Below, in pieces: positions 3,634 through 12,426 of a stretch of DNA of 25,418 nucleotides; the stretch's first letter is position 1, and each line of letters begins with the position of its first letter. The notes beneath the pieces are model-generated. The model worked only from the letters and a program-made list of their open reading frames with translations, was not told where the DNA came from and searched no databases. The DNA is from a virus, in the IMG/VR virus record IMGVR_UViG_3300046837_000101, positions 1 through 25,418 of that record. One strand, written 5' to 3'. Both the position numbers and the translations under genes were made by a program.

Positions 3634-5280
3634 ATGACCGTTCCCCTCGGTAACGGCGAGGAGATCACTGGAGCGCAGCGGCCCCGCCTGTGCTCACTCC
3701 CTGCTGCTCACTCTTACGCGGCCGGCGAGGACGCGGTGGACTTCGCCGCCAAGTCCGGCCTGGTCCTCGATGAGTGGCAGGGCTGGGGCCTCACCCAGTC
3801 GATGGGCACCCGCCGCAACGGGCTGTGGTCCGCCTTCGAGGTGGCCTGGATCATCGCACGCCAGAATGGTAAAAACTCGGGCCTGGAAGCCCGTCAGCTG
3901 GCCGGCCTGTTCGTGCTCCGCGAGGCCCTGCAGATCCATACCGCGCACGAGTTCAAAGCCTCCGGTGAGCATTTCCTGCGCATGCAGTCGATGATCCGGG
4001 GCAACCCTGAGCTGCTGCGCAAGGTCAAGCCGGGCGGTATCCGCACCTCCCACGGCGAGGAGGCCATCGAACTCCGCCCCGAGCCGACCCTCATTTTCGG
4101 CCACAAAGGCACCCAGATCCGCAAGTCGGTCGCCCCCCGGCTGCGGTTCCTGGCCCGGTCCCGTGGCTCAGGCCGGTCATTCACCGCCGATGCCGTCTAC
4201 TACGACGAGGCCATGATCCTGTCGGATGAGCAGGTGTCCGCGTCGATGCCCACCATGTCGGCCGTGCCGAACCCGCAGATGTGGTACACCGCGTCGGCCG
4301 GGATGCCCGACTCGATCCAGCTGTCCCGGGTGCGCAAGCGCGGCCTGGCCCAGAACGACCCGACGCTGTGCTTCATGGAATGGTCCTGTGAGTTCTGCCC
4401 CGACCTGTGCCCCGACAAGGGCAAGCGGCGCTGCTCGTTCGGCCATGACCGGCGCGACGACCCGCATTCGTGGGCGCGGGCCAACCCGGGCATGAACATC
4501 CGCATCAGCGAAGAGCACATCGCCCGCGAGCTGGTCAAGATGGACCCGGCCGGGTTCGACCGCGAGCGCCTCGGCATCGGCGACTGGCCACTGGACGAAC
4601 TGTCGTGGTCGGTGATCAGCGAGCACCTGTGGCGCGGCTGCGAATGGCCCGGCCCCGGCGACATGCCCCGCCCGGAGCGGATCTGCATATCGGTGGACAT
4701 CGCCCCCGACCAGGGCGCGGCAACGATCGCCATTGCTGGCATCGTGTCCGGTGTCGAGGCTGCGGTCACCGACGACAAGACCGGTGAGGTCATCCGGGTG
4801 CCGGTCGCGGCGCTGGAAATCGGCAGCGACGGGCAGTGGGACGATCACCGGTCCGGGGTCGCCTGGATCATGCCCCGCCTGAAAGAACTGGTCGCCAACA
4901 ACCGGGTCGCCAAGATCGTCATCGACCCGATCGGGCCAGGAGCTGAGCTGATCACCGCGTGTGAGGCGGCGGGCCTGTCGGCGAAGAAACCCCGCCCCAC
5001 GGCTGAGCCGATCCTGGAGATCTGCCAGCTGCGGGACGTAGCGCAGGCGCACGCCCAGTTCGTGCGCGGCGTCAGCGACAACACGATCATCCACCGGGGC
5101 CAGGACAGCCTCGGCAAGGCGGTCGCCGCTGGTGTCCGGCGGGACGTGGGTGACGGGATGCACGCCTGGGCACGGCGGGACACCAGTGCCGATATTTCCC
5201 CGCTGTGCGCGGGAACCATGGCAGTATGGGCAGCGCGGAAGTTCGGGCGCGGCTACGACGTACTGAGGTCGGTTCTCTAG
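3634..5280 (+). CDS. terL: Terminase large subunit
   Basis: This 548-aa protein is the DNA-packaging motor ATPase and nuclease. The adenine-binding Q motif is LDEWQ (45-49). A Walker-A-like loop of the phage type is RQNGKNS (76-82). Walker B with the catalytic Glu is AVYYDEAM (187-194), and a coupling-motif-like MWYTASA is near 216-222. The C-terminal RNase-H-like nuclease begins at ICISVDIAPDQG (350-361, acidic D355) and continues with KIVIDPIGPG (D431). Length and order fit HK97-type actinophage large terminases. An unusual Cys cluster (C252, C255, C259, C267) lies between the two domains. The ATG at 3634 has no strong Shine-Dalgarno but sits next to the 3608-3633 element. An HNH gene precedes it, as is usual. 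Confidence 0.93.
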   Translation: MTVPLGNGEEITGAQRPRLCSLPAAHSYAAGEDAVDFAAKSGLVLDEWQGWGLTQSMGTRRNGLWSAFEVAWIIARQNGKNSGLEARQLAGLFVLREALQIHTAHEFKASGEHFLRMQSMIRGNPELLRKVKPGGIRTSHGEEAIELRPEPTLIFGHKGTQIRKSVAPRLRFLARSRGSGRSFTADAVYYDEAMILSDEQVSASMPTMSAVPNPQMWYTASAGMPDSIQLSRVRKRGLAQNDPTLCFMEWSCEFCPDLCPDKGKRRCSFGHDRRDDPHSWARANPGMNIRISEEHIARELVKMDPAGFDRERLGIGDWPLDELSWSVISEHLWRGCEWPGPGDMPRPERICISVDIAPDQGAATIAIAGIVSGVEAAVTDDKTGEVIRVPVAALEIGSDGQWDDHRSGVAWIMPRLKELVANNRVAKIVIDPIGPGAELITACEAAGLSAKKPRPTAEPILEICQLRDVAQAHAQFVRGVSDNTIIHRGQDSLGKAVAAGVRRDVGDGMHAWARRDTSADISPLCAGTMAVWAARKFGRGYDVLRSVL

Positions 5281-5683: not shown

Positions 5684-6009
5684 TGAGCGACACGGCGACG
5701 ATGGCCCCGGCGAACGGGCGCAAGCCGCTGCACGAGCGGGTGCCACTGGAGGCGATCACCGCCGACGCCAGGAAGGCATCACCAGGCAAGGTGATCCTCG
5801 GCCTGATCGGTGGCCTGATTTTCGCCATCGCCTGGCTGACCGCCAAGGCGTTCACTATGGTGTTCTTCGCGTTCGCCTGGTGCGCGTCGGCGGCGAAGAT
5901 GGGCTGGCGCACCGCCCGTGACCTGCCACTGAATCAGCCGGATGTCAGGGAACTGATAGCCGAGAACGATAGGCTGCGTGCCATGATCGACAGGTACCAG
6001 ATCGGATGA
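5683..6009 (+). CDS. Membrane protein with C-terminal coiled helix (108 aa)
   Basis: A hydrophobic stretch at about residues 37-71 (VILGLIGGLIFAIAWLTAKAFTMVFFAFAWCASAA) could make one long or two short membrane helices. The N-terminal 35 residues are soluble and charged. The C-terminus (VRELIAENDRLRAMIDRYQ) has a heptad-like Leu/Ile pattern fit for a short coiled coil. No family is recognised. Translation starts at ATG 5683 in a TGATG overlap, and the stop overlaps the next gene (ATGA, 6006-6009). A membrane role such as a holin is possible given the cysteine peptidase next door, but this is speculation. Confidence 0.75.
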   Translation: MSDTATMAPANGRKPLHERVPLEAITADARKASPGKVILGLIGGLIFAIAWLTAKAFTMVFFAFAWCASAAKMGWRTARDLPLNQPDVRELIAENDRLRAMIDRYQIG

Positions 6010-6899
6010 CCCACACCGTCAGGGTTGACCACATCACCGAGCACCCCGTCGAAGGCAAGCCGCTCGGCCGGCACGTCTGGCACGACTCCCGCTCCCTCGC
6101 CTACCCCTACCGCAGCGAGGGTGTGCTGCGGACGGTGATATGGGCGCGGATGATCGGCATCCTCGATCAGGGGAACCTCGGCTCCTGCACCGGCAACGCG
6201 ATGGTCGGCGCGGCTGGCACCACTCCCGTCTATGACGCCCTCCCCGTGGGGCACATGACACTGAACGAGGCGGGAGCGATCAGCCTGTATGGGGCGGCCA
6301 CCCGGCTCGACGGCTACCCCGGCTCCTACCCGCCTGACGACACCGGCAGCGACGGGCTGAGCGTGTGCAAGGCGGCGCAGAACGCGGGCCTGCTGTCCGG
6401 CTACACCCACTGCTTCGACCTGAACACCGCCCTCCAGGCCCTGTCGGCTGGCCCGGTGCTGTTCGGCTTCAACTGGTACGACAGCTTCGATAATCCAGAT
6501 TCGTCCGGCCTGGTCGCCATCTCGCCCGGCGCCCAGATCCGAGGTGGCCACGAGGTCGTCGGCCGGGGACTCGACACCGCCTCGATGCTGGTATTCATGG
6601 ACAATTCCTGGACTCCATCATGGGGAAACAAGGGCAGCTTCTCCATGTCGTGGGCGACCCTGACCCGGCTGCTGGCCGAGCAGGGCGACGCGACCGTGCC
6701 GGTCCCAGCCACACTGCCCGCGCCAGTGCCCGTACCAGATCCGGTACCAGTGCCGGTGCCCGATGTGGCCACCCCAGCAGACGTGGCGCTCGCGCACGCG
6801 CTCGGCCAGTGGCCCTACAAGCGCCACTACGGCGCCACCAAGACGGCTGCGGCGGACATCGTCACCTGGGAACACGCCAAGAACCTCGGGCCAGGATGA
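6006..6899 (+). CDS. Papain-like (C1 family) cysteine peptidase
   Basis: The 297-aa protein has the papain catalytic set in order: DQGNLGSCTGNA with oxyanion Gln55 and nucleophile Cys61, IRGGHEVVG with His182, and MDNSWTPSWGNKGSF with Asn200. NSWxxxWGxKG is a diagnostic C1 motif. A Val/Pro repeat (about 231-253) links the enzyme to a C-terminal 45-residue tail (DVALAHALGQWPYKRH...). There is no signal peptide, so a cytoplasmic or virion location is likely. C1-type peptidases occur in some actinophage structural regions; here the gene lies between terminase and portal. It could process head or host proteins, or act in lysis. The ATG overlaps the upstream stop (ATGA). Confidence 0.85.
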   Translation: MTHTVRVDHITEHPVEGKPLGRHVWHDSRSLAYPYRSEGVLRTVIWARMIGILDQGNLGSCTGNAMVGAAGTTPVYDALPVGHMTLNEAGAISLYGAATRLDGYPGSYPPDDTGSDGLSVCKAAQNAGLLSGYTHCFDLNTALQALSAGPVLFGFNWYDSFDNPDSSGLVAISPGAQIRGGHEVVGRGLDTASMLVFMDNSWTPSWGNKGSFSMSWATLTRLLAEQGDATVPVPATLPAPVPVPDPVPVPVPDVATPADVALAHALGQWPYKRHYGATKTAAADIVTWEHAKNLGPG

Positions 6900-7530: not shown

Positions 7531-9487
7531 ATGGGGCTTGCTGATCGCATCAGTATCGAAACTCGGACGATCGGCGGGATGCCCTGGCAGTTACCACCCC
7601 TGGCGGAATCCGTACTGGAAATTCAACATCGGTGGGCCGACCCATCCTTCACGGGAAACCCAGGGCCAGGACTCGGTACTGGCGCTCGGTGCCTGCTATT
7701 CGGCGATCAGGTTCATCGCCGACCAGATCGCCTCCCTGCCGATCAAGGTGTACCGGCAGCTGCCCAACGGGGACAGTGAGCGGATCTTCTCCACCATGCT
7801 GCTCGGCTCGCCCGTCGCTGGCGGTGGCCCGCAAGTAAGCGGCACGCTGTATGACTGGATGTTCACAGGCTCCACGTCGGCGCTGCTGCACGGCAACGCC
7901 TGGGGCCTGATCACCAACCGGGGTGGCATCCCCGGTCCTGACGGGCTCGGCCTGCCGACCGGCATAGCGTGGCTCCCCGCCGACCGGATGGACGTTCAGG
8001 ACGACGAGATGCAGCCCGAGAACCCGGACCGGGCGCGGATCTACTACAAGGGCCACCTGATGGAACGCCAGGAGCTGGTCCACCTGAAAGCGTTCAGTGT
8101 CGCTGGCCGGGTCGAGGGCGTCAGTCCCCTCAAGGCGTTCGCCCTGCTGTGGGGGCAGGGCATTGATGCCCTGAAGTATTCGGCTGACTGGTTCTCCAAT
8201 GGCGGTTTCCCGCCCGGCACCTTCCAGAACATTAACGAAGAGGTCAACGACCAGCAGGCGAAGCAGATCCGGCAGCGGCTCACCGACACGATCCGCATGC
8301 GGCAGCCGCTGGTCTATGGCCGGGACTGGGATTACAAGGCGCTCACCGTCCCGCAGAACGAGGCGGCGTTCATCCAGGCGATGCAGCTGAACGCCACGCA
8401 GGTCGCGGCGATCTACGGCGTGCAGCCGTACCGGGTCGGCGGCACCCGCAACGACGGGCTCACCTACTCGAACGTCACGATGAACCTGCTGGACGAGCTG
8501 ATCACCACGCTCCGCCCATGGCTGACCCGGTGGGAACATCTGCTGACGATGCTGCTGCCCGCCACCCAGTTCGTGAAGTTCGATGTCGATGACCTGCTGA
8601 AGATGGACCCGCACACCCGCACCCAGGTGTATGAGATCCAGCGGAACATCGGCACACGGACGGTCAACGAGATCCGCGCCGACGACGACAAGCCGCCGAT
8701 CGCCGGCGGTAACGAGCCGATACCGCTGCCGGTGCTGAACCGCATGCTCGGCACCACCCGCACCATCCCGAAGAGCTACCTGCCGCAGGTCACCATGGAA
8801 GCGCAGCTGATCGCCGACCTGATCGAGAAGATGGAAACCGAGCACCCCGACCAGGTCAACCCGATGACCGCCGGGAAGCCGCCGTTCACCGCATCGCCGC
8901 AGCAGTACCTGGCGAAGCTGATCACCCAGGTGCGGTCCGGCCAGATGTTCGGCCCACCCGACGCCCCCGTGGCTGACAGTGACCGCAAGTCGGCGGTCAC
9001 CATGCTCCATGCCTATGAGCGCCGGGGCGACCTGACCCCCGCTGAGGCGGCGCAGAGAATCGCCGCCGTGAGTGCGGCGAGGACCACGGGCGAACTGGCG
9101 CAGTTGTTCGAGGGCCTGCCGCACCTGACCGATGGCATGGCACCATCGGTCCCGCGCCGCTCTGATTTCGGGCCAGCCGAATACCGCGCCTCCGACACCG
9201 ACCGTGAGCACGCCCGTGAACTGCTCGCCGTCCACGCGGCGGCGGGCCGGCTGCGGGGCCATGAATTCGATGCGCGATCTCTCAAGGCGTCAGAGGCCGT
9301 AACCTGCGGAGATCTTGATACATTGTTCGCAGATCTTCCCGTTGTGGAGCAGGCCGCGTCCACAACGGAAGAGGACCACAGGGACGCCCAGCCCCTGTTC
9401 GGCCCGGCCGCGCTCGCCCTGCTGCACGGCAAGGCGGAAGACTTCGTCCCGGCGGCCAGGGCCGCCATGAATGGGAAGGCGCACTAA
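7531..9487 (+). CDS. Portal protein with apparent N-terminal frameshift and two C-terminal DUF1707-like domains
   Basis: The core (LALGACYSAIRFIADQIASLPIKVYRQ ... NEAAFIQAMQLNATQVAAIYGVQPYRVGG ... NVTMNLLDELITTLRPWLTRWE) is a clear HK97-type portal, the dodecameric vertex for DNA passage. The main frame opens only at TTG 7538 with a poor N-terminus. A different frame from ATG 7531 (or GTG 7525), behind GGAGGT at 7515-7520, gives MGLADRISIETRTIGGMPWQ, a typical portal start. Skipping T7591 joins it to YHPWRNPYWKFNIGGPTHPS. So there is an indel, a sequencing error or a +1 shift. Numbered from 7538, residues 479-528 and 550-601 each match the SDxDRxxxxxxL...GxLxxxE...A..ARTxGELxxLFxxLP pattern of DUF1707. 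LFGPAAL follows at 620-626. The prohead protease follows with a 1-nt overlap. Confidence 0.92.
9395..9415 (+). repeat. 21-bp exact repeat encoding LFGPAAL at the portal C-terminus
   Basis: The same 21 bases recur at 10426-10446 near the end of the prohead protease. Both copies are in frame and encode LFGPAAL, 22-30 residues from the C-terminus, suggesting a shared docking tag on two head proteins or a recent small duplication. Confidence 0.85.
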
Positions 9488-10494
9488 TGGCGGCCATCTC
9501 GACTTCCGAGGCCAACGACCTCCCGGACAGTGCCTTCGCTTACATCGAGCCGGGAGGCACCAAAGACCAGGAGGGGAAGACAACTCCCCGCTCGCTGCGG
9601 CATTTCCCCGTCCACGACGCCTCGCATGTCCGTAACGCCCTCGCCCGCGCCAGCTCGTCCCCGTTCGGGGACAAGGCGATGGCCAAGATCAGGACGATGG
9701 CCAAGAAGTTCGGCGTCCACGTCGGCGAATCGTCTATGTCCCGCGACTACGAGCGGCGCGAGGTGCGGATCACCAGCCAGTTCCGCGATCTGGACCGGCC
9801 GATCGAGATGCGTGACATGGGCACCGAGGGCAGGTGGATCGGTGGCTACGCCACCGTGTTCATCCCCCGCGAGTCGAAGAACCTCGGCGGGTTCAAAGAG
9901 CGTGTCATGCCGACGTTCTTCAACGAGGTGCAGTCGCGCGGCTGGAAGAACATTGACGACGCCACCGGGGTCGTCTGCCGGTATAACCACGACTCGAACA
10001 TGGTGCTCGGCACGACTGAGGCTGACACGCTGCGGCTCAGCCCGGACCGCATCGGCCTCGACTACATGGTGAAGCCGCCTGAGTCCCGCGCCGACATCCG
10101 CGAGCTGGTCGAGCGGCGCGACATCCGGTACTCCAGCTTCGCGTTCCGCTGCCACCCAGGCGGCGACGAGTGGGACTGGCGCGACGGCCTGGCGCTGCGG
10201 ACCCTGCATTCGGGTGACCTGATCGACGTGGCCCCGGTGCTGACCCCCGGCTACGGCGACACCACCTCGATGCTGCGGGCGTTCGACGCCGCGTTGTACT
10301 CGATCGCCGACTATGTCCAGGCTGAGGTCGAAGAGGTGCGGGCATTCGCCGCCGACGACGATCTGCGCAAGTTCTTCGTCCGCAGCGACCGGCCCACTAT
10401 GCCGGCCGCCGGCCCGCGCAAGGGACTGTTCGGCCCGGCCGCGCTCACGTCGATCCTGCTCCGCCGGCGCGACCAGTGGGACGAAGAGGGGTAG
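9487..10494 (+). CDS. HK97-family prohead protease with N-terminal DUF6582-like region
   Basis: Residues 100-260 carry the S78 protease features: WIGGYATVFIPRES, GFKERVMPTFFNEV, CRYNHDSNMVLGTT (catalytic His168), RLSPDRIGLDYMVKPP, RYSSFAF (nucleophile Ser216/217) and DVAPVLTPGY. This enzyme trims scaffold and capsid subunits during head maturation. Residues 8-80 (LPDSAFAYIEPGG...TTPRSLRHFPVHDASHVRNALARASSSPFGDKAMAKI) match a small domain often fused to phage head or portal proteins, which I place as DUF6582-like. The C-terminus holds the LFGPAAL tag (314-320) shared with the portal, then a basic tail. ATG 9487 overlaps the portal TAA by one base. Confidence 0.9.
   Translation: MAAISTSEANDLPDSAFAYIEPGGTKDQEGKTTPRSLRHFPVHDASHVRNALARASSSPFGDKAMAKIRTMAKKFGVHVGESSMSRDYERREVRITSQFRDLDRPIEMRDMGTEGRWIGGYATVFIPRESKNLGGFKERVMPTFFNEVQSRGWKNIDDATGVVCRYNHDSNMVLGTTEADTLRLSPDRIGLDYMVKPPESRADIRELVERRDIRYSSFAFRCHPGGDEWDWRDGLALRTLHSGDLIDVAPVLTPGYGDTTSMLRAFDAALYSIADYVQAEVEEVRAFAADDDLRKFFVRSDRPTMPAAGPRKGLFGPAALTSILLRRRDQWDEEG
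10426..10446 (+). repeat. 21-bp exact repeat encoding LFGPAAL at the prohead protease C-terminus
   Basis: This is the partner of 9395-9415, identical over 21 bases and read in the same codon phase. The sequence beyond both edges diverges (ALLHGK in the portal, TSILLRRR here). Confidence 0.85.
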
Positions 10495-10503
10495 CCGCGC
10501 AAG

Positions 10504-10989
10504 GTGCAGATTGCCTGCTTCTACACCAGCCTGCATCCAGCCTGCAAGGCCACCCTCCCGCCCGGTACAGAGCTGGTGTGGACGGGCCTCGGTGACGACG
10601 CCTACTGGAATGAGATCAGCAAGCGGTGGACCGGCTGGGATGACCTGCTGATCATCGAGCACGACATGGAACTCCACGATGAGGTCGTGCCGCAGCTCGA
10701 AGCCTGCAAGTCTGACTGGTGCGTGTTCCCGTATGAGTACGGCCCCGGGTGGCCTGACGCGCCGCTGATCACCCAGGCGCTCGGCTGCACTAAGTTCTCC
10801 GCCGAACTGCAGCGCGAGTTCCCCACTGAGCAGATCGCCGCGACCGTGTCGAAGGCGGATCACATGCCACCGGAGCCACTGTGGCATTACTGCGATCTGT
10901 ATATCCGCCGCGCCCTCACCAGGGCGGGCCTGAAGGAATGCCAGCACAGGCCGCTGGTGACCCACCACAGGGGCAGACCGCTGGTGTAG
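10504..10989 (+). CDS. Glycosyltransferase-like protein between protease and capsid genes (161 aa)
   Basis: The protein runs MQIACFYTSLHPACKATLPPGTE ... RWTGWDDLLIIEHDMELHDEVVPQLEACKSDWCVFPYEYGPG ... QALGCTKFSAELQREFP. The LLIIEHDMELH segment sits where GT-A enzymes place their DxD metal motif. ACKSDWCVFPYE and ALGCTKFSAEL resemble a small family of phage glycosyltransferase-like proteins. At 161 residues it is shorter than full GT2 enzymes, and no complete donor site can be assigned. GTG 10504 lies 9 nt after the protease stop with only AAGG beside it. Its location between protease and major capsid genes makes the virion a possible target. Confidence 0.65.
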   Translation: MQIACFYTSLHPACKATLPPGTELVWTGLGDDAYWNEISKRWTGWDDLLIIEHDMELHDEVVPQLEACKSDWCVFPYEYGPGWPDAPLITQALGCTKFSAELQREFPTEQIAATVSKADHMPPEPLWHYCDLYIRRALTRAGLKECQHRPLVTHHRGRPLV

Positions 10990-11112: not shown

Positions 11113-12426
11113 ATGGCCAGCGAAGTTACCAAGAGGCTGCGGGACCGGCGTCTCAACGTGTGGGAGCAGTGCAAGGCGCTCGCCGACACTGCCGCCACCG
11201 AGAACAGGGCATTTTCGGCAGAAGAGCAGGGTAAGTGGGATGTCCTGAACGAGGAAATGGACACCCTCGACACCCGCATCAAGTCCGCGCTTGACGCTGA
11301 GCAGCGCTCCGCCGAGGCCGACCAGGCGTTCAACCGCCTGCACGCCGACGCCGAGGGCAAGAAGATGGCGAAGGACCCGGCCGTCAAGATGCTCAACACC
11401 GAGCTGCGCAAGTTCCTGCTCGGCGACAGCCGGGGCAACGCGCCCGGTGGCGCCTTCGAGGTGTCCCGCCCGGACAACAGCCGGATCAACTGGAACTACG
11501 GCCCGGTCAACCTGGCCGAAGTCCGCAGGGCCGAGGCCGAGTACCGGACTCTGGTGTCCACGTCTGTCACCTCCGGTGGCAACCTGGTCCCGACCGACTT
11601 CTATGACCAGCTGATCGCGCACTTGATAGAAGTCTCGGGAATTCTGCAATGCGGCCCCACCGTGCTAAACACTGCCGGCGGCGAGAACCTGCAGATCCCG
11701 AAGACGACCGCGCACTCCTCGGTGAGCGCCGCAGCCGCCCAGACGGCAGCGCTGGCGGCGTCCGACCCCACGTTCGGCCTGATCACCCTCGGTGCCTTCA
11801 AGTACGGCATCCTGCTCCAGGTCGCCCGTGAACTGCTGGACGACTCCGGTGTGGACCTCGTCGGCTACCTGGCCATGCAGTCCGGCCGGGCGCTGGGCAA
11901 CAAGTTTGGTTCCGACCTGGTGACCGGCACCGGCACCACGATGCCGAACGGCCTGATGGCCACCTCCACGGTGGGTGTCACCGGCACCACGACCGGCAAG
12001 AGCGGCGCGGCCCAGTACAGCGACCTGGTCAACCTCGAATACTCGGTCATCGCCCCCTACCGTCAGTCGAAGTCCTGCTACTGGCTGGCGAGGGACGCGG
12101 CGATCGGCGGGTTCCGGCTGCTGCTCGACGGCCAGTCGCGGCCCATCTGGGAGCCCAGCATGGTTCTCGGGTCGCCTGACCTGCTGCTCGGCAAGCCACT
12201 GGTGGCGGACCCGTTCATGCCGGCGGTGGCCACTGGCGCCAAGTCGATCGCGTTCGGCGACTTCAGCCAGTTCTTCGTCCGCATCGTCGGCCCGGTCCGG
12301 TTCGAGCGGTCGGACGACTTCCTGTTCGGCACCGACCTGGTTGCCTTCCGGGCGATCATCCGTGGCGACGGCACGCTGGTTGACCAGACCGGCGCGATCA
12401 AGACATACCAGGGGCCGGCTACCTAA
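11113..12426 (+). CDS. Major capsid protein, HK97 fold
   Basis: The 437-aa length is typical. Residues 1-105 form a charged helical region (KRLRDRRLNVWEQCKALAD ... AEEQGKWDVLNEEMDTLDTRIKS) like the scaffolding delta domain removed by the prohead protease. The capsid body follows: LVSTSVTSGGNLVPTDFYDQLIAHL, ENLQIPKTTAHSSV, ITLGAFKYGILLQVARELLDDSGVDL, NGLMATSTVG, LLLGKPLVADPFMP, SIAFGDFSQFFVRIVGPVRFERSDD. This is the spine helix, E-loop and P-domain order of HK97-type coats. The start has AGGAGGAGCC just upstream. A strong hairpin follows the gene, in keeping with separate high-level expression. The protease and portal lie directly upstream, as usual. Confidence 0.95.
   Translation: MASEVTKRLRDRRLNVWEQCKALADTAATENRAFSAEEQGKWDVLNEEMDTLDTRIKSALDAEQRSAEADQAFNRLHADAEGKKMAKDPAVKMLNTELRKFLLGDSRGNAPGGAFEVSRPDNSRINWNYGPVNLAEVRRAEAEYRTLVSTSVTSGGNLVPTDFYDQLIAHLIEVSGILQCGPTVLNTAGGENLQIPKTTAHSSVSAAAAQTAALAASDPTFGLITLGAFKYGILLQVARELLDDSGVDLVGYLAMQSGRALGNKFGSDLVTGTGTTMPNGLMATSTVGVTGTTTGKSGAAQYSDLVNLEYSVIAPYRQSKSCYWLARDAAIGGFRLLLDGQSRPIWEPSMVLGSPDLLLGKPLVADPFMPAVATGAKSIAFGDFSQFFVRIVGPVRFERSDDFLFGTDLVAFRAIIRGDGTLVDQTGAIKTYQGPAT

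Follow-up and report, generated by a model that had tools for sequence, protein, structure and literature searches.

In HK97, the protease is said to co-assemble with the capsid protein. The resulting Prohead 1 contains the capsid protein with its delta domain, about 60 proteases and 12 portals (PMC12749128). How one portal and tens of proteases are recruited to each shell of HK97-type phages with fused scaffolds is poorly understood. In phage SPN3US, a truncated protease from which part of the C-terminal propeptide is missing is active but fails to be incorporated, and the authors propose that the C-terminal tail targets the protease into the prohead (PMC7411985). The same source describes a shared N-terminal sequence that targets several internal proteins in T4 (PMC7411985). 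This capsid-targeting sequence (IPI-III, Alt) has 10–20 residues, is carried by internal, ejected proteins and contacts a separate core. Encapsulin cargo-loading peptides are short C-terminal peptides on a flexible linker, which bring a protein inside an HK97-fold shell.

The stretch of DNA analysed here, called the window, is a 25-kb piece (25,418 nucleotides, 67% G+C) from an uncultured tailed soil phage, an IMG/VR virus record. Its portal and its prohead protease share a peptide, LFGPAAL, near their C-termini. The protease tail resembles the propeptide of SPN3US gp245 in that it extends beyond the catalytic domain, and here it contains a conserved segment. In contrast, the gp245 propeptide is 64 residues long and autocleaved, its targeting role was inferred from truncation mutants, and the accessible text on SPN3US, a member of a different phage family, reports no tag common with the portal (PMC7411985). 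As in T4, one short sequence is found on several proteins that enter the prohead, here the portal and the protease; however, the T4 sequence is N-terminal, whereas both tags here are C-terminal. As with encapsulin cargo, the tags are short terminal motifs on a variable linker, but encapsulin is a non-viral shell whose peptide binds the shell wall and is unrelated in sequence to LFGPAAL. HK97 has the same gene order of portal, protease and capsid and a delta-domain scaffold; to our knowledge, no LFGP motif common to its protease and portal is known.

The head module and the repeat

The window has the head-module order of HK97-type phages. On the plus strand lie the genes for a portal with an HK97-type core and a long C-terminal extension (7538..9487; PF04860, E=8.8e-50; PHROG portal; start codon uncertain), a prohead (S78) maturation protease (9487..10494; PF04586, E=5.3e-24; PHROG head maturation protease) and a major capsid protein with an N-terminal scaffold (delta) domain (11113..12426; PF05065, E=2.2e-54, residues 155-432). 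The large terminase is at 3634-5280, and a papain-like peptidase (6006-6899; PHROG peptidase, weak PF00112) lies between the terminase and portal genes. In relatives, the protease is also upstream of the capsid. A gene at 10504-10989, between protease and capsid, has no family match; since the gap between these two genes in many relatives is only about 100–200 bases, it looks like an insertion.

The earlier note on this DNA described an exact in-frame 21-bp repeat encoding LFGPAAL 22–30 residues from the ends of the two proteins, and its coordinates and frames are confirmed. CTGTTCGGCCCGGCCGCGCTC occurs twice in the window, at 9395-9415 in the portal gene and at 10426-10446 in the protease gene. 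The portal copy corresponds to residues 620-626 of 649 (ORF 7538-9487) and starts 30 residues before the end, and the protease copy corresponds to residues 314-320 of 335 (ORF 9487-10494) and starts 22 residues before the end. The repeat was found in none of the dinucleotide shuffles of the window. Portal and protease would be expected to have 0.0007 7-residue words in common, and after this one their longest common word has only 4 residues, in agreement with the note's view that the two proteins have no further similarity.

With the peptide fixed, agreement of all seven codons has p ~0.008 from codon usage alone; the exact 21-bp identity is therefore an accident added to the conservation of the peptide and gives no evidence of a recent duplication. 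The unit that matters has about 14 residues, including the helix, rather than seven. On the plus strand, the portal tag is LFGPAALALLHGKA (9395..9436; identified by repeat, alignment, entropy and profile) and the protease tag is LFGPAALTSILLRR (10426..10467; by repeat, alignment and entropy), each with its 7-residue core at the repeat.

The two tails

In the protease, LFGPAAL sits in a conserved 14-residue terminal motif, (L/M)FGPxAAxxLLxR(R/K), which follows a variable linker and is widespread in the family. The residues flanking the motif on both sides are conserved, as is the helix up to RxDP(W/Y); in some subclades S or T replaces F. The protein ends in the acidic/aromatic segment RDQWDEEG (10468..10491, plus strand; family consensus xDP(W/Y)xxx, from the alignment), and close relatives end in PRKGLFGP(A/Q)AAxxLLxRKRDQWDxx. 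Just upstream of the tail, many proteases have FxR-(T/S)D (10372-10390), a possible cleavage site, at which cutting would release the tag.

At 8975-9340, two DUF1707 (SHOCT-like) domains are fused to the C-terminal tail of the portal, and one or two are found in relatives. On the plus strand, the first (8975..9130; PF08044 match, limits approximate and read from the sequence) is preceded by MFGPP (8945..8959) and the second (9185..9340; PF08044, residues 550-601) by FGPA (9167..9178), both motifs being read from the sequence. Such an FGP motif stands 5–10 residues upstream of nearly every portal DUF1707, divergent relatives included, and there are up to three FGP motifs per portal tail, about 75 residues apart. 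Close relatives have a portal end of the form PLFGPAALALLxxRA...AAxNGKxH. The conserved C-terminus is NGKAH in the window (9470..9484, plus strand; alignment), and an NG(K/N)xH-like motif closes family portals even where tag and DUF1707 are missing; NG falls inside the last 25 residues in 50/73 portals.

Conservation in relatives

Relatives were collected by protein-guided IMG/VR searches, which gave 33 and then about 150 related loci; genome contigs contributed only distant prophage-like relatives, mostly from Streptomyces. Neither the protease tail nor the FGP-DUF1707 part of the portal had a match in the GenBank phage collection, so that the search there gave no cultured relative carrying the tag.

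The earlier note proposed to look for the tag in portals and proteases of related phages. Both tags are conserved, at the level of the peptide, and are kept in relatives whose proteases are 60–100% identical. The mean column entropy of the tag is 0.51 bits in 17 motif-bearing portals, against 2.59 in the linker directly upstream, and 0.47 bits in 16 motif-bearing proteases, against 1.61 in the linker. Linker length is variable, and the tag nevertheless keeps its place close to the C-terminus, a pattern typical of short linear motifs.

At the DNA level, the exact 21-bp identity holds in the window and its nearest relatives. The portal and protease copies agree in 7/7 residues and 20/21 bases in relative L035, and in 6/7 residues and 16/21 bases in L020. 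In lineages where the protease has LFGPQAA and the portal LFGPAAL or LFGPAAM, the two copies have just 13–14 bases in common. A P-to-A change in both tags of L028/L038 was considered as co-variation and rejected, being a single lineage and contradicted by L040.

Profile comparison and collection scan

A 14-column profile was built from the protease tails of ten phages, all with untagged portals. With this protease-only profile, the best site lies at the aligned tag, 22–41 residues from the end, in 21/21 portals of the tagged clade. The window portal has a score of 17.6; the highest score among 2400 shuffled portals is 15.0, and none of the other window genes scores above 4.1. In degenerate portals of the clade the scores are 0.7–2.2, individually not significant, and the best site is still at the tag.

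A DNA pattern for LFGPAA(L/M/I), scanned across 2.9 million viral contigs, matched in 46 stretches. Newly fetched stretches contained 58 sites, of which the portal or protease tails of this group account for 43; the remaining 15 belong to about eight families of unrelated proteins. The tag coding pattern is thus found mainly in portal and protease tails. A search for a third carrier gave none among the remaining window genes; in related loci it gave only two matches, both weak and internal to unrelated long ORFs.

Origin of the portal copy

In the protease tree, the strict form of the protease motif is scattered and reaches lineages distant from the window, and looser forms (S/T-G-x-x-A-M) occupy the same position in other lineages. 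The portal tag is restricted to one clade, so that its distribution is nested within that of the protease tag; it is degenerate in L123, L126 and L127 and takes the variant form TFGPQALALL in L039. Wherever the portal has the strict tag, the protease of the same phage is also tagged (16/16). DUF1707 is present in the tagged portals tested and in the degenerate ones. The protease tag is conserved in four sister or outgroup phages (L044, L045, L062 and L052) whose portals have neither DUF1707 nor tag. The best explanation of these patterns appears to be that the tag is ancestral in the protease and that in one clade the portal bears it as well; an ancient duplication is a possible origin of the portal copy. 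The L052 portal (L052:3274-5979) also contains an intein with a LAGLIDADG domain (PF14890, PF14528).

Proposed docking in the prohead interior

The presence of the tag, its conservation as a peptide, its confinement to two tails and its nested distribution suggest a docking function in the prohead interior. LFGPAAL is probably the core of a shared docking peptide, for which the N-terminal scaffold (delta) domain of the capsid protein is the most likely receptor. The docking peptide would be C-terminal and about 14 residues long, a short helix behind a hydrophobic LFGP cap, on a flexible linker, and within this phage family it would be an ancestral feature of the prohead protease. Portal C-termini point into the prohead interior. 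In one clade the portal would carry the same peptide there, at the end of a DUF1707-containing tail. One common binding site in the assembling prohead, most likely the capsid scaffold domain, would then probably recruit both proteins, which would thereby enter the same shell.

The capsid scaffold domain, rather than DUF1707, is proposed as the receptor because a receptor must exist wherever the protease tag does. About 150 residues precede the PF05065 domain of the capsid protein; the N-terminal helical part (about 11113-11400) is conserved, and the first residues of the scaffold domain, SEVxKxLRDRRLNVWExxKxxAD, are kept across the family. AlphaFold2 predicts the capsid N-terminus of relative L017 as helical, with pLDDT 66–83 in the best part. 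To see whether the tail becomes ordered beside the scaffold domain, the L017 protease and its read-through fusion to the capsid protein were also modelled with AlphaFold2; with shallow ten-row alignments, both models are of low confidence (mean pLDDT 37.5 and 41.6), and the tail is unordered in each (pLDDT about 30–36). Of the note's original idea, a common signal for the prohead interior stands as the best explanation, supported by conservation and by the profile, while the delta domain is a candidate partner only. Most phages of the family have no portal tag; therefore, portals can in general be incorporated without one.

Alternative explanations

A direct contact between portal and protease, in which the tags bind each other or the portal DUF1707 is the receptor of the protease tag, seems rather unlikely. 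Portal tags are seen only in portals with DUF1707, and in clade portals an FGP motif precedes nearly every such domain, as would suit this arrangement. However, the protease tag is conserved in the four phages named above, and since these lack a portal DUF1707, the ancestral receptor was not DUF1707. It is possible that DUF1707 was added as a receptor within the tagged clade.

The earlier note also considered the tag as a cleavage site of the prohead protease, which would trim its own tail and that of the portal at LFGP/AAL. The position of the motif near the ends of both proteins is consistent with this, and prohead proteases trim themselves and sometimes portals, as with gp245 and gp81 of SPN3US (PMC7411985). 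Cleavage nevertheless fits less well and is unlikely. The principal substrate is the capsid protein, whose scaffold/shell junction contains nothing like LFGP but instead a nearly invariant (Y/L/M)R-TL (94/99 capsids), and in the protease the conservation of the flanking residues and of the whole downstream terminal helix exceeds what a cut site needs. The nearly invariant R before T/S-x at the capsid scaffold junction ((Y/L)R-TL; 11113-11570) is itself a possible cleavage site. R-(T/S) as a common cut site of capsid, protease and portal is no more than a lead, since it is found in 94/99 capsids but, with a simple pattern, in only 61/123 proteases.

It is similarly improbable that the two tails are unrelated conserved C-terminal helices, with no common partner, which have converged on a generic N-capped alanine/leucine helix. 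GC-rich genomes do favour A, L, G, P and R, and the downstream parts are unlike, NGKxH in the portal and DP(W/Y) in the protease. Convergence would, however, have to account for a profile match that exceeds both the shuffled portals and all other window genes, for the same site in every clade portal, and for seven-residue identity in several lineages.

A functionless recent local DNA duplication or gene conversion, which could produce the exact 21-bp identity of the window and its nearest relatives and which the earlier note, together with chance, had expected to leave neither tag conserved, is very improbable, because both copies are old and conserved across the whole clade, most relatives show synonymous differences between them, and codon usage accounts for the identity.

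Implications

Tails and sequences that target single proteins are known, but a label shared by portal and protease appears to be undescribed: no common tag of the two was found in the literature searched, which included few subscription papers. With the common docking peptide as the preferred reading, it is conceivable, as a more tentative extension, that one scaffold-domain receptor recruits both the nucleating portal and the protease through a portable tag, and that the FGP motifs of the DUF1707 tail may act multivalently on the 12-fold portal. If a short transferable tag is indeed common to both proteins, their recruitment would become testable by deletion, swapping and competition, and the tag would add a new peptide with which to load proteins into phage shells. 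It would also show that a portal can acquire the address label of another head protein.
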